Shown one piece after another: positions 40,257 through 44,515 of a stretch of 64,000 bases of DNA. Position numbers and translations under genes: made by a program. Source of the DNA: Cryptosporangium phraense (GTDB taxonomy: Bacteria; Actinomycetota; Actinomycetes; Mycobacteriales; Cryptosporangiaceae); assembly GCF_006912135.1 (NCBI RefSeq), contig NZ_VIRS01000006.1, positions 1-64,000 of the forward strand, written 5' to 3'. Within the stretch, counting starts at the first letter, position 1; the number at the start of each line of letters is the position of its first letter. The notes beneath the pieces are model-generated. The model was given only the letters and a program-made list of their open reading frames with translations. It made no database searches and had not been told where the DNA came from.

Positions 40257-42623
40257 TCACAACTTCTCCAACGGCGCATACCTCAACAAGAACCACCGCG
40301 GCTTCCCATCCCCAAAATCCACACAAGCCTGCGCCCGATCCCCATCCCCCCGCATCTCCACGACCCGCCCCAACCCATGCGCATCGTGAGTGACCCGATC
40401 CCCGACCTCCAGCGAGATCACCGGCCGGTTCCCCGCCCCGGCCGCCCGCCCACCCGGCCGCGCCGACGACGCGTACTGAGCCGCGAGCCGCTCCTGGGCC
40501 GACCCGGTACCGCTCCACTTCGACAGCGTCTCTTTCGGCGCCGGCGCCTCCCGCTCCCAGCTCAGCAGCCCGGTCGGCACCTCGTCGAGGAAGCGGGACG
40601 GCGGGTTGTACTGCGGCTGCCCCCAGGCACTGCGCGTGATCGCCCGCGAGAGATACAGCCGCTCCTGGGCCCGGGTGATGCCGACGTACGCGAGCCGCCG
40701 CTCCTCCTCCAGCTCCTTCGGGTCGCCGAGCGAACGCAGGTGCGGAAAGACGCCGTCTTCGAGCCCGGTCAGGAACACCACCGGGAACTCGAGACCCTTG
40801 GCGGTGTGCAGCGTCATCATCGTGACCTGCCCCTGCGCAGCGGCCTGGTCGGCACCTTCCTCGTCGTCGGGCGCGGGCGGGATGCTGTCGGCGTCGGCCA
40901 CCAGCGCGACCTGCTCGAGGAACTCGACCAGGCCGGCCTCGGTCTCGGCCGCGGCCGCCCGCTCCTCGAACTCGCGGGCGACGCTGACCAGCTCCTGCAG
41001 GTTCTCGACGCGCCCCTCGTCCTGCGGGTCGGTGCTCTCTTCCAGTTCGGCCAGGTAGCCGGTGCGGGACAGCACCTCCTCCAGCACGATCGAGGGCGGC
41101 TCGGTCTCGGCCAGCCGGCGCAGCGCGGTCATCAGCGCGGTGAACTCGCCGATCGCCTTCACCGCCCGGCTGCCGATGCCCGGCGCCTCGCCGGCCCGCT
41201 CGAGCGCGGCGCCGAACCCGATGCGCTCGCGCGACGACAACGCCTCCACGCACGCCTCGGCCCGATCGCCGATACCGCGCCGGGGCGTGTTCAGGACCCG
41301 CCGGACGCTCACCGTGTCGTCGGGGTTGGCCAGCGCGCGCAGGTAGGCGAGCGCATCGCGCACCTCTTTGCGCTCGTAGAAGCGGACGCCGCCGACGACC
41401 TTGTAGGGCAGCCCGACCCTGATGAACACTTCCTCGAACACCCGGGACTGCGCGTTCGTGCGGTAGAAGATCGCGACGTCACCGGGCCGGTGATCACCCG
41501 AGTCGGTGAGGCGGTCGACCTCGCCGGCGACCCAGGCGGCCTCGTCGTGCTCGTTGTCGGCCACGTAGGCGGTGAGCGGCGCGCCGTCGCCCGCCTGCGA
41601 CCACAGATTCTTGGGCTTGCGGCTCTCGTTGCGGGCGATGACCGCGTTGGCCGCCGACAGGATCGTCTGCGTGGAGCGGTAGTTCTGCTCGAGCAGGATC
41701 GTCGTCGCCTGTGGGTAGTCGCGCTCGAACTCGAGGATGTTGCGGATGCTCGCGCCGCGGAACGCGTAGATCGACTGGTCGGCGTCACCGACCACGCACA
41801 GCTCCCCAGGTGGCGGGTCGCCGGCCGAGTCGGTGCCGACCAACTCCCGGATCAGCATGTACTGGGCGTGGTTCGTGTCCTGGTACTCGTCGACCATCAC
41901 GTGGCGGAACCGGCGCCGGTAGTGCTCGGCCACGGCCGGGAACGCCTGCAGCAGGTTCACCGTCGTCATGATGATGTCGTCGAAGTCGAGCGCCTGGGCC
42001 TCGCGGAGGCGACGCTGGTAGAGCGTGTAGGCCTCGGCCAGCATCCGTTCCTGCGTGCTGGAGGCGCGGGACGCCCAGGTCTCCTCGTCGATCAGCTCGT
42101 TCTTCAGGTTGCTGATCTGCGCGGTGAGCGAGCGGGCCGGGTAGCGCTTCGGGTCGAGGTCGAGCTCGCGGGCGACCAGCGTCATCAGGCGACGCGAGTC
42201 GTCGGCGTCGTAGATCGAGAACGTCGACTTCAGGCCGGCCGTCTTGGCCTCGGCCCGGAGGATGCGGATGCAGGCCGAGTGGAACGTCGACACCCACATC
42301 GAGCGGGCCCGCGGCCCGATGAGCGCCGAGACCCGTTCCTTCATCTCGCCCGCGGCCTTGTTCGTGAACGTGATCGCCAGGATCTCGCCGGGCTGGGCAC
42401 CGCGGTGCGCGAGGATCCAGGCGATGCGGTGGGTGAGCACGCGGGTCTTGCCCGAGCCCGCACCGGCGACGATCAGCAGCGGCGTGCCCTCGTGCACGAC
42501 CGCGGCGCGCTGCTGGTCGTTGAGGCCTTCGAGCAGCGTGGCCGGGTCGACGGCCAGGCGCACCGGCCGCCTCGGGGGGACGGGATCCGGGGCCTGACTG
42601 GGGGCGTCGAACAGGGTGCTCAT
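40257..42623 (-). CDS. pcrA: ATP-dependent DNA helicase PcrA/UvrD
   Basis: A 788-residue SF1A helicase acting in nucleotide excision repair, replication and removal of RecA or stalled polymerase. The Q-motif region LNDQQRAAVVHEGTPLL, Walker A AGAGSGKT at 53-60, motif II VDEYQDTNHAQY, motif III GDADQSIYAFRGA, motif IV EQNYRSTQTIL, and motif VI YVGITRAQERLYLSRA are all present. The C-terminal end VGDRVTHDAHGLGRVVEM with a Tudor-like domain matches actinobacterial PcrA/UvrD1. ATG 42623 gives MSTLFDAPSQ. It is divergent from the chorismate mutase leader, as uvrD1 is from the homologous gene in mycobacteria. Confidence 0.95.
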   Translation of the reverse strand: MSTLFDAPSQAPDPVPPRRPVRLAVDPATLLEGLNDQQRAAVVHEGTPLLIVAGAGSGKTRVLTHRIAWILAHRGAQPGEILAITFTNKAAGEMKERVSALIGPRARSMWVSTFHSACIRILRAEAKTAGLKSTFSIYDADDSRRLMTLVARELDLDPKRYPARSLTAQISNLKNELIDEETWASRASSTQERMLAEAYTLYQRRLREAQALDFDDIIMTTVNLLQAFPAVAEHYRRRFRHVMVDEYQDTNHAQYMLIRELVGTDSAGDPPPGELCVVGDADQSIYAFRGASIRNILEFERDYPQATTILLEQNYRSTQTILSAANAVIARNESRKPKNLWSQAGDGAPLTAYVADNEHDEAAWVAGEVDRLTDSGDHRPGDVAIFYRTNAQSRVFEEVFIRVGLPYKVVGGVRFYERKEVRDALAYLRALANPDDTVSVRRVLNTPRRGIGDRAEACVEALSSRERIGFGAALERAGEAPGIGSRAVKAIGEFTALMTALRRLAETEPPSIVLEEVLSRTGYLAELEESTDPQDEGRVENLQELVSVAREFEERAAAAETEAGLVEFLEQVALVADADSIPPAPDDEEGADQAAAQGQVTMMTLHTAKGLEFPVVFLTGLEDGVFPHLRSLGDPKELEEERRLAYVGITRAQERLYLSRAITRSAWGQPQYNPPSRFLDEVPTGLLSWEREAPAPKETLSKWSGTGSAQERLAAQYASSARPGGRAAGAGNRPVISLEVGDRVTHDAHGLGRVVEMRGDGDRAQACVDFGDGKPRWFLLRYAPLEKL

Positions 42624-42669
42624 CGCTGTGCGACCTTACTCCGGCCCACCGACAGATCGAGGGGCCCTC

Positions 42670-42697
42670 TTGGCCCGGACCGATTCACGTGTAACAC
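42670..42697 (+). promoter_or_regulatory. Putative promoter for the chorismate mutase leader transcript
   Basis: TTGGCC (-35-like), 16 bp, then TAACAC (-10-like) at 42692-42697. The distance places the start of transcription around 42704-42705, at or beside the leader GTG, which would make the leader peptide leaderless. The assignment rests on motif spacing only. Confidence 0.45.
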
Positions 42698-42704
42698 TCT
42701 TCCC

Positions 42705-42770
42705 GTGGTTCGACTGACGGCACGATTTTTTTACGGCTCCGGGCATCCGGCAGCCGTCATCGTCGTCTGA
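42705..42770 (+). CDS. Putative 21-codon leader peptide with Phe-Phe-Tyr
   Basis: A GTG-initiated frame of 21 codons ending at TGA 42768-42770. It contains consecutive Phe-Phe-Tyr codons at 42726-42734, in the order ARFFYGSGHPAAVIVV. No ribosome site lies upstream, and the GTG is 7-8 bases after a -10-like TAACAC, so it may be translated as a leaderless mRNA, common in actinobacteria. It is followed by an intrinsic terminator and then chorismate mutase, whose pathway yields Phe and Tyr. The codon content, position and lack of another upstream gene on this strand support an attenuator leader; expression is unproven. Confidence 0.6.
   Translation: MVRLTARFFYGSGHPAAVIVV
42733..42757 (+). promoter_or_regulatory. 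Leader hairpin overlapping the Tyr codon
   Basis: ACGGCTCCGG pairs with CCGG(C)AGCCGT around a GCAT loop, with one bulged C. Its 5' arm begins within the Tyr codon. The segment GGCTCCGGG (42735-42743) can instead pair with CCCGGGGCC (42790-42798), which lies in the terminator stem, giving mutually exclusive folds. Confidence 0.5.
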
Positions 42771-42785
42771 ACCCAGACCACTTCG

Positions 42786-42816
42786 ACGCCCCGGGGCCCA
42801 GCTCCCGGGGCGTTTT
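42786..42816 (+). terminator. Intrinsic terminator (attenuator) before chorismate mutase
   Basis: ACGCCCCGGG, 8-nt loop, CCCGGGGCGT and then TTT. It sits between the leader peptide stop and the chorismate mutase ribosome site, with no complete gene upstream on this strand. That placement is expected of an attenuator rather than an end-of-operon terminator. Confidence 0.75.
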
Positions 42817-42861
42817 GCGTGCCCGGGGTCCGGACCGCTCACGTACACGAGGAAGCACACG

Positions 42862-43122
42862 ATGACTGCACCGACCACCGCCGACACCGAGATCGCCGCG
42901 CTCCGCGAGCGCATCAACGCGGCCGACGACGAACTGATCCGGATCTGGCGCGAGCGCGCCGAACTCAGCCGCCAGGTAGGAGCGGCCCGGATGGCCGCGG
43001 GGGGCACCCGGCTCGTCCTCTCCCGCGAGAAGGCGATCGTCGACAAGTTCCGCGACGCCCTCGGCACCGACGGCGCCCAGCTCGCCATGCTCCTGCTCCG
43101 CGCCGGCCGCGGTCCTCTTTAA
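42862..43122 (+). CDS. Chorismate mutase, monofunctional AroQ type
   Basis: An 86-residue all-helical AroQ-type enzyme that converts chorismate to prephenate for Phe and Tyr synthesis. Catalytic-type residues are in IAALRERINAADDELIRIWRERAELSRQVGAAR (Arg near 15, Lys/Arg near 40 and Asp-rich helix) and SREKAIVDKFRDALG; the gene is near the short length of the mycobacterial intracellular enzyme Rv0948c. ATG 42862 is preceded by a clear GAGGAAG ribosome site at 42849-42855. Synteny with pcrA/uvrD and sucCD matches mycobacteria. Upstream sequence suggests attenuation control. The enzyme is expected to work with DAHP synthase, as in other actinobacteria. Confidence 0.88.
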   Translation: MTAPTTADTEIAALRERINAADDELIRIWRERAELSRQVGAARMAAGGTRLVLSREKAIVDKFRDALGTDGAQLAMLLLRAGRGPL

Positions 43123-43249: not shown

Positions 43250-43630
43250 AACCCCCCGCCTGGCGGGCCGGCGGGCTGCGGGCTGGCGGAGACTAATGCC
43301 CGGCCGCGGCTTGTGCTTCCCCGTCCTGTTCTACCGAGCCGAGGTCTCGCGTCCAGGGCTGCCGGGCCCCCGCGTCCAGGGCTGCGGGCCCAGGCCTTCC
43401 GCGCCCGAGCGCCGCTGTACCTGCACCGCCCCCGACCTCCCGGGCCTGGCGCTGCTGCGTCCAGGCCTGTGTCGCCTGGCGCTGCTGTGCCGACCCCTTC
43501 CGGGCCTAGCGTCGCCGCATCGAGTTCTGCCGCGTTCGGTCCCGCCGCGCTCAGTCCTGCCTTATCCAGACCTGCCTCATCCGGCGCCGCCGCATCCAGC
43601 CGGGGAAACACAGCCTGGCCGTACGGGCCC

Positions 43631-43750
43631 ACTGTGCCGGGCCGACTGTGCCGGGCCGACTGTGCCGGGCCGACTGTGCCGGGCCGACTGTGCCGGGCCC
43701 GCTGTGCCCGGGCCGGGTGCCGGGCCCGCTGTGCCCGGGCCGGGTGTCGG
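43631..43750. repeat. Tandem arrays of 14-bp and 27-bp units
   Basis: Five copies of ACTGTGCCGGGCCG start at 43631, 43645, 43659, 43673 and 43687. Two copies of a 27-bp unit beginning GCCCGCTGTGCCCGGGCCGG follow. The 14-bp period is not a multiple of three, which argues against coding use. Confidence 0.85.
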
Positions 43751-44349
43751 GCGCGGCGCGCCCGGGCCCCCCTTGTCGGGGCTTGCCGCGGCGGGCGGTG
43801 CCGGGCAAACCAAGTGTTCCCCGCTGCGGGACGCAGCGCCCCTACTACGCCCAGCCTTAGTGGTCCCTGCTTCCACCGGCGCCCAGCCATCCTGCGCCCT
43901 AGCCCCCACCGAGGTGGGCGCCGCCGCTCGTGACCCCCTCGGCGCGGGGCGGGCCTGGGGTTGTTTCGGCTGTACTTGCGGCCCGCGGATCGGGGGCAGC
44001 AGCAGTGGCGCCGTGCGTGCGCCAGGGTTCAGTTAGGGCAGGGGCCGTGGGCCAGGCAACCGGGCTTGGCGGATCGCGGGCGCTGGGGGTGGGGGTGGGG
44101 TGGCGGCCAGAGACCAGGCCGCGAGGCTTGGGTCCAGCCCGCGCACCGAGGCCGCACTTGGGGCGTTGCCCGCGTTGCCCGGCGTTGCCTGAGCTCGGGG
44201 CGGGACTGGCTGCGGGGGAAGTTGCGCTGCGGTGGGGGCCGCGCCGGGGCGGGGCCTGCATTGGGCGGGGCTCCGCGGCGGTGGGGGCTGCGCGGCGGTG
44301 GGCCCGGCTGGAGACCAAGCTTGCGACGGAGCTATGTCGTCCCGCCCGC

Positions 44350-44515
44350 GGCGGCTGTGTCGTGCCCGCCCGCGGCGGCTGCGCCGCTCCCACCCCGCCT
44401 CCGGCGGCTGCGCCGCCCCCGCCTCCGGCGGCTGCGCCGCCCCCGTCCCCGGCGGCTGCGCCGCCCCCGCCTCCGGCGGCTGCGCCGCCCCCGTCCCCGG
44501 CGGCTGGGCCGCTGT
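44350..44515. repeat. Seven-unit tandem array of a GC palindrome
   Basis: Units starting GGCGGCTG occur at 44350, 44374, 44403, 44427, 44451, 44475 and 44499, six of them spaced 24 bp apart and one pair 29 bp. Most units contain GGCGGC-TGC-GCCGCC, so each can form a small stem. Confidence 0.85.

Follow-up and report, generated by a model that had tools for sequence, protein, structure and literature searches.

Layout of the chorismate mutase leader locus

The window, as we call the 64,000-nucleotide stretch of the Cryptosporangium phraense genome analysed here, contains a gene for chorismate mutase (CM), the enzyme standing at the Phe/Tyr branch point, preceded by a leader region with the divergent pcrA gene upstream of it (Table 1). 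The CM product matches PF01817 and the NCBIfam chorismate mutase models, and its closest solved structures are the Rv0948c-type enzymes; the Shine-Dalgarno site and start codon follow the terminator, as the initial annotation had described. The annotation had also described a 21-codon GTG frame with consecutive Phe-Phe-Tyr codons and no ribosome site. This frame is present, its translation is VVRLTARFFYGSGHPAAVIVV (first residue taken as Met), and no Shine-Dalgarno site was seen in the sequence before its GTG. A -10-like element just upstream of the GTG is likewise present, although the proposed TAACAC register gave way to AACACT because relatives share the latter.

Table 1. Features of the CM leader locus in window coordinates.
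Feature	Position	Strand	Basis or remark
pcrA, divergent, upstream of leader	ATG 42623	-	
-10 hexamer AACACT	42693..42698	+	6 nt upstream of leader GTG
Leader peptide frame, 21 codons + stop	42705..42770	+	GTG 42705-42707, TGA 42768-42770; conserved at 106/110 CM loci
Sensor codons Phe8 Phe9 Tyr10 (TTT TTT TAC)	42726..42734	+	codon conservation over 106 leaders
1:2 hairpin (42733-42742 with 42747-42757)	42733..42757	+	z -4.4; covarying pairs in helix 1
Segment 1, 5' arm of 1:2 hairpin	42733-42742	+	
Segment 2, 5' strand of predicted antiterminator	42742..42758	+	2:3 complementarity tests, 40 sequences and 41 loci; fold
Small hairpin GTCTG-AACC-CAGAC around leader stop codon	42765..42778	+	predicted fold only
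Segment 3, terminator left arm and 3' strand of predicted antiterminator	42785..42798	+	complementarity tests, fold
Intrinsic terminator 3:4, T-run 42813-42816	42785..42816	+	z -4.1; covarying helix 2
Shine-Dalgarno site GAGGAAG of CM	42849..42855	+	sequence
CM gene, 86 aa, ATG 42862	42862..43122	+	PF01817, NCBIfam models, structure neighbours

Two hairpins follow the sensor codons. The first (1:2) has a folding energy of -16.9 kcal/mol and stands well below its dinucleotide shuffles, as does the terminator at -25.3 kcal/mol. The latter had been assigned to 42786-42816; its stem is now delimited to 42785-42814, with the T-run reaching 42816. The run comprises just four T, and those of the genus mates (L082-L084) five or six; the window terminator is absent from the list of a simple terminator scan with a threshold of at least five T in eight bases. 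The small hairpin at the leader stop codon would sit within the loop of the predicted antiterminator, and some relatives have comparable CTGA...CAGACC strings.

Antisense to pcrA, a plus-strand frame of 797 codons (40377-42770) has the leader's reading frame and stop, and could hide the leader from automatic annotation. Between the CM gene and an M23 peptidase gene lie GC-rich tandem repeat arrays with units of 14-42 bases (43348-43391, 43624-43742, 44223-44302 and 44341-44512).

Conservation of the leader frame and its aromatic codons

Related CM loci were collected by a scan with the window's CM, which gave 82 relatives, 80 of them kept, and by searching 41 genomes close to that of the window, with matches at 41 places in 40 of them, of which 30 loci were taken. 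The resulting 110 loci count the window (L081), and one genome twice (L001, L087); hosts include Amycolatopsis, Saccharothrix, Umezawaea, Micromonospora, Actinophytocola, Saccharomonospora and Geodermatophilaceae MAGs. A scripted search for an FFYG-type aromatic run in an open frame with an ATG, GTG or TTG start and a -10-like hexamer 5-8 nt upstream recovered the leader at 106 of the 110 loci (78/80 and 28/30). The initial annotation had named relatives lacking the short frame and its Phe/Tyr codons as evidence against its reading; instead, the start, the FFY codons and the stems are all conserved in the aligned upstream regions, and the stems covary.

At the four other loci, the stretch read upstream of an Actinoplanes CM (L012) contained no visible leader, L109 had none, L089 carried a different, unrelated-looking Phe-rich short frame that scored only 12 bits with the RNA model described below, and L051 retained the leader RNA at 111.5 bits with a frame broken by one missing T. 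Two loci among the 106 have similar lesions: in L067 one T is missing, so that the run reads FFT, and in L025 one base is missing after the Tyr codon. These one-base losses in or after the Phe/Tyr run alter the frame with the stems intact, and could reflect decay or sequencing error.

Over the 106 leaders, the first sensor place is Phe in 102, the second Phe in 93 or Tyr in 10, and the third Tyr in 103. Departures from TTT TTC TAC number 65 at third codon positions and 28 at first and second positions, an excess expected if the amino acids, not the bases, are conserved. The -10 hexamer, most frequently CATACT (41 leaders), stands 6 nt from the start in 80 and 7 nt in 26, a spacing that is partly selected because the script accepted only hexamers with A second and T sixth.

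Conserved amino acids might also point to an arrest peptide, in which the nascent chain rather than the codons senses Phe or Tyr, and the residues after Tyr (G-x-R-T-P-A-P-V) are indeed well conserved near the window's group. That stretch, however, overlaps the stems, and the post-Tyr residues differ in Streptomyces-like leaders; in L025, moreover, the frame shifts after Tyr while the stems stay, although the loss could be a sequencing error. We therefore regard an arrest peptide as highly improbable.

Covarying stems and the choice of antiterminator

RNAalifold applied to the first alignment returned the 1:2 stem alone because the terminator arms were misaligned, so the structure was set by hand. 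In the resulting 35-sequence alignment, 93.0% of cells are paired and eight pairs are changed on both sides; structures slid along the alignment reached at most 53.6%, the percentage favouring the drawn structure because it was drawn on these same sequences. Both stems covary, with 51 double-change cells against a shuffled mean of 17.0, counts in which related rows weigh many times, and no shuffle out of 500 equalled the alignment on any of five measures.

The initial annotation had pointed out that GGCTCCGGG (42735-42743), in segment 1, can pair with CCCGGGGCC (42790-42798), in the terminator left arm, thereby excluding both other hairpins. The pairing can indeed form, with one G-U pair, and if it were the antiterminator it would tend to reverse the sign of the regulation. 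In the window it is the stronger duplex (-20.3 kcal/mol vs -18.2 for pairing of segments 2 and 3), its strength is shared within the genus (L083, also -20.3), and it forms in the folding model when a ribosome sits on the stop codon. Across relatives, however, it does no better than duplexes with swapped partners, and 2:3 is the pairing that is conserved. For 40 sequences the mean 2:3 duplex energy was -18.30 kcal/mol against -16.25 for swapped partners, with 0 of 5000 permutations as good, while the 1:3 duplex averaged -12.91 against -12.81, with 1644 of 5000 as good. With more families and the DAHP-synthase leaders included (41 loci), the corresponding counts were 0 and 5380 of 20,000, and with one locus per family (24 loci) 0 and 761 of 20,000. 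These permutations ignore kinship, for which the 1:3 test on identical rows serves as the control; the 41-locus set includes wrong automatic terminator hairpins (at least L100, L103, L124, L177 and L186) and early Tyr anchors (L086, L090), and for 27 of the 41 the native 2:3 duplex was stronger than the mean of its swapped duplexes. Between Tyr+13 and the end of the left arm, the sequence also tends to fold better than its shuffles: over 40 sequences z averages -1.76 and lies below -1 in 35 of them, the window's own value being only -1.40. On these comparisons, the conserved antiterminator is predicted to be segment 2 with the terminator left arm; a role for 1:3 in its place is very doubtful.

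A predicted Phe/Tyr-responsive switch

These elements suggest the following model. The RNA would begin at the leader GTG, so that a ribosome could load directly there, with no need of a Shine-Dalgarno site. When charged tRNA-Phe or tRNA-Tyr is short, the ribosome would stall at codons 8-10 and cover segment 1; segment 2, left free, would pair with segment 3, the terminator would be blocked and CM transcribed. With Phe and Tyr plentiful, the ribosome would pass and leave, 1:2 would form, segment 3 would be free for 3:4, and transcription would probably end near 42816. Geometry and folding thus suggest that starvation should give readthrough.

Folding of partial transcripts is consistent with this sign. 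Taking the ribosome footprint as -15 to +12 around the A site, we found that the free window RNA to 42799 forms 1:2 with a probability of 0.95, and that a ribosome at Phe8, Phe9 or Tyr10 shifts it to 2:3 with a probability of 1.00; four nucleotides later (to 42803), the free RNA is split between 1:2 (0.52) and 2:3 (0.48). Masking segment 1 eliminates 1:2 by construction, and the informative outcome is that 2:3 then forms. Of 53 sequences, 48 exceeded 0.5 for 2:3 upon a Tyr stall and five failed; as free RNA, 1:2 exceeded 0.5 in 48 and 2:3 in five, and the whole free leader folded as the terminator in 52. The DAHP-synthase leaders L142, L145 and L149 prefer 2:3 when free and do not cleanly follow the switch pattern. 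A caveat to the sign is the ribosome on the stop codon, which, like one at the start codon, also keeps segment 3 paired upstream in the folded partial transcripts. Since the equilibrium fold of the whole window leader prefers the terminator in six of six modelled states, the switch would need co-transcriptional timing together with prompt ribosome release.

In silico, the locus combines a frame with product codons, a terminator between frame and gene, and a predicted antiterminator that excludes the terminator and that a stalled ribosome would release. We put at roughly 0.87 the probability that the locus works as a classical ribosome-mediated transcription attenuator, with charged tRNA-Phe and tRNA-Tyr as the sensed signal and CM as the gene it is predicted to control. 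The comparison of related loci lends strong support to the Phe/Tyr-responsive attenuator that the initial annotation had suggested ahead of CM.

Relation to known leaders

Attenuators of this kind are classical, and the CM leader family appears undescribed. By description, one close parallel is E. coli pheL-pheA, in which a leader peptide responding to charged tRNA-Phe controls a gene with chorismate mutase activity (PMC11802643). There, however, the enzyme is a fused chorismate mutase-prephenate dehydratase, the phylum is distant and the sensing is for Phe, whereas in the window the CM stands alone and its leader has codons for Tyr as well as Phe and is predicted to start leaderless. The same source describes an actinobacterial leader peptide with Phe-Tyr-Phe, the Corynebacterium glutamicum aroR-aroF system, in which transcription rises on Phe limitation and Tyr availability is reported to have no effect; its target, by description, is a DAHP synthase gene, whereas that of the window leader is CM. 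For CM itself in C. glutamicum, the control described there is feedback mediated by its complex with DAHP synthase.

An upstream frame with product codons, an antiterminator, an intrinsic terminator and the same sign as proposed here are also known from Mycobacterium tuberculosis ilvB1 and Corynebacterium ilvBNC (PMC13236596, PMC11857589, PMC10272879), in both cases with branched-chain codons and genes instead. Streptomyces trpL and other leaderless leaders share short frames, product codons and hairpins, and the S. lividans reannotation (PMC8079986) gives eight leader peptides, of which none belongs to CM. For actinobacterial Phe/Tyr operons, a survey from 2005 reported no structures of this sort, and the word 'chorismate' is absent from the main texts of PMC13236596, PMC2965389, PMC4833913 and PMC4633059. 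The initial annotation knew of no attenuator for an actinobacterial CM, and the open-access literature searched likewise contained no description of one. The predicted CM switch is of relevance to strains engineered for aromatic products.

Distribution of the leader RNA

A covariance model of the RNA, R1, was built from 35 CM leaders with no gene information. Of 394 class genomes, 97 contain a match at E 0.001, in a single place each except for G424, which has two overlapping matches. By family, 33 of these genomes belong to f33/g48, 30 to f31, 22 to f8/g9 and 12 to others; judging from their CM sequences, f33/g48 is probably Streptomyces-like and g9, whose CM is close to Rv0948c, probably Mycobacterium-like. 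In a draw of 198 genomes across the phylum, R1 matched 18 with a threshold of E 0.01; five of the 18 lie outside the class, and four of these five belong to f67.

We checked 61 loci brought by R1, one per genome (30 + 20 from the class search and 11 new from the phylum draw). Forty precede CM, 18 precede DAHP synthase and three neither (L157, L169, L172). Seven of the 61, all CM loci, were training sequences (L112-L116, L118, L122), and 55 of the 97 matched class genomes were looked at.

A survey centred on the gene gave a complementary view. A CM profile, scored on the first 42 candidates of each genome, matched at least 32 of 128 class genomes at no fewer than 35 places. Of the 32 best places per genome, 18 had an adjoining R1 match and eight more an F/Y frame with a -10 element (L176, L177, L179, L181, L182, L184, L186, L187); L178 and L180 were ambiguous, L175 was cut by a contig end, and at three orthologous-looking CMs (L109, L173, L174) the leader was absent. 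No leader was found at L183 and L185, the two second CM copies read out of three, at two Streptomyces plasmid CMs (L224, L225) flanked by an LmbU family regulator on one side and an NRPS or adenylation gene on the other, or at the Nocardia farcinica CM locus L226, which resembles L109 and L173; L224-L226 are the three loci read out of eight records. L109, L173 and L226 have a common, different 5' region that lacks both an FFY frame and a matching terminator; their Tyr-only short frames may be leader remnants.

No Rfam family, T-boxes, riboswitches and amino-acid leaders among them, matched the window at gathering scores or six leader loci at E 0.1. In the window's own genome, TTTTTTTACGG occurs once in 8.46 Mb, the class search gave a single R1 match, and the type II DAHP synthase (L194) and prephenate dehydratase (L204) genes have no such leader; CM thus seems to be the sole gene so switched there. 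Leaders for the same two enzymes in ten genomes were considered and rejected, none being convincing at 19 of 23 loci, with a short flank and a misplaced reading at L205. Membership of trpE leaders in the family gained no support either: the nine loci scanned out of 13 had neither a W-W frame within 700 bp nor a match to the full length of the model.

DAHP-synthase leaders and the codon logic

The R1 matches before DAHP synthase comprise 14 class loci at E <=0.001 and four f67 loci at E 6.8e-4 to 0.007. The genes are of type I, and in their leaders (L142-L154 and L159 in f31; L167, L168, L170 and L171 in f67) Trp is added to Phe and Tyr, with cores such as NFWRFYG, SFWYG, WSFFYD or WFFYG. Phe, Tyr and Trp all depend on DAHP synthase, whereas CM serves Phe and Tyr alone.

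Defining the aromatic core as the key Tyr and the five residues before it, we found Trp in 3 of 138 scripted CM leaders compared with 18 of 18 DAHP-synthase leaders, the latter made up of 14 of 14 by script and four also positive when read by eye (L152, L167, L170, L171). The CM counts divide into 0 of 106 fetched loci and 3 of 40 model-brought ones, eight of the 40 repeating loci of the 106. The three are L125 (QWRFFY), L166 (AQWFSY) and L156, the last through a misplaced core. The leader codons appear to match the end products of each enzyme, which we take to be the strongest functional argument because R1 carried no gene information; the difference in Trp between CM and DAHP-synthase leaders offers a natural test of codon sensing.

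This tracking of the downstream enzyme's products also bears on the idea that the short frame is a small gene merely boosting expression of the next gene, for instance by reinitiation, with the terminator being constitutive. The frame is conserved, as such a gene would be, and portions of PMC4833913 describe leader genes near structural genes as common in Actinobacteria. The distance from leader stop to CM ATG, however, is 91 nt, far above the 10-11 bp named in that source, and the alternative stems covary. A constitutive arrangement of this sort is so improbable that we give it almost no weight, and a codon-sensing attenuator is the reading we retain.

More tentatively, and at a little under even odds, the two groups of leaders may descend from one ancient Actinomycetota leader RNA placed before CM and DAHP synthase, with sensor codons fitted to each enzyme (Phe/Tyr or Phe/Trp/Tyr). 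It would then be a modular aromatic sensor that extends beyond the class and marks the gene copy of primary metabolism.

Two of the f67 leaders, L167 and L170, start without a clear -10 element in register. The leaders L102, L158 and L101 carry additional Phe/Tyr codons (FFYGFRYAFFG, YFYGTGFFY and RFYADFFY, respectively), perhaps providing multiple stall sites.
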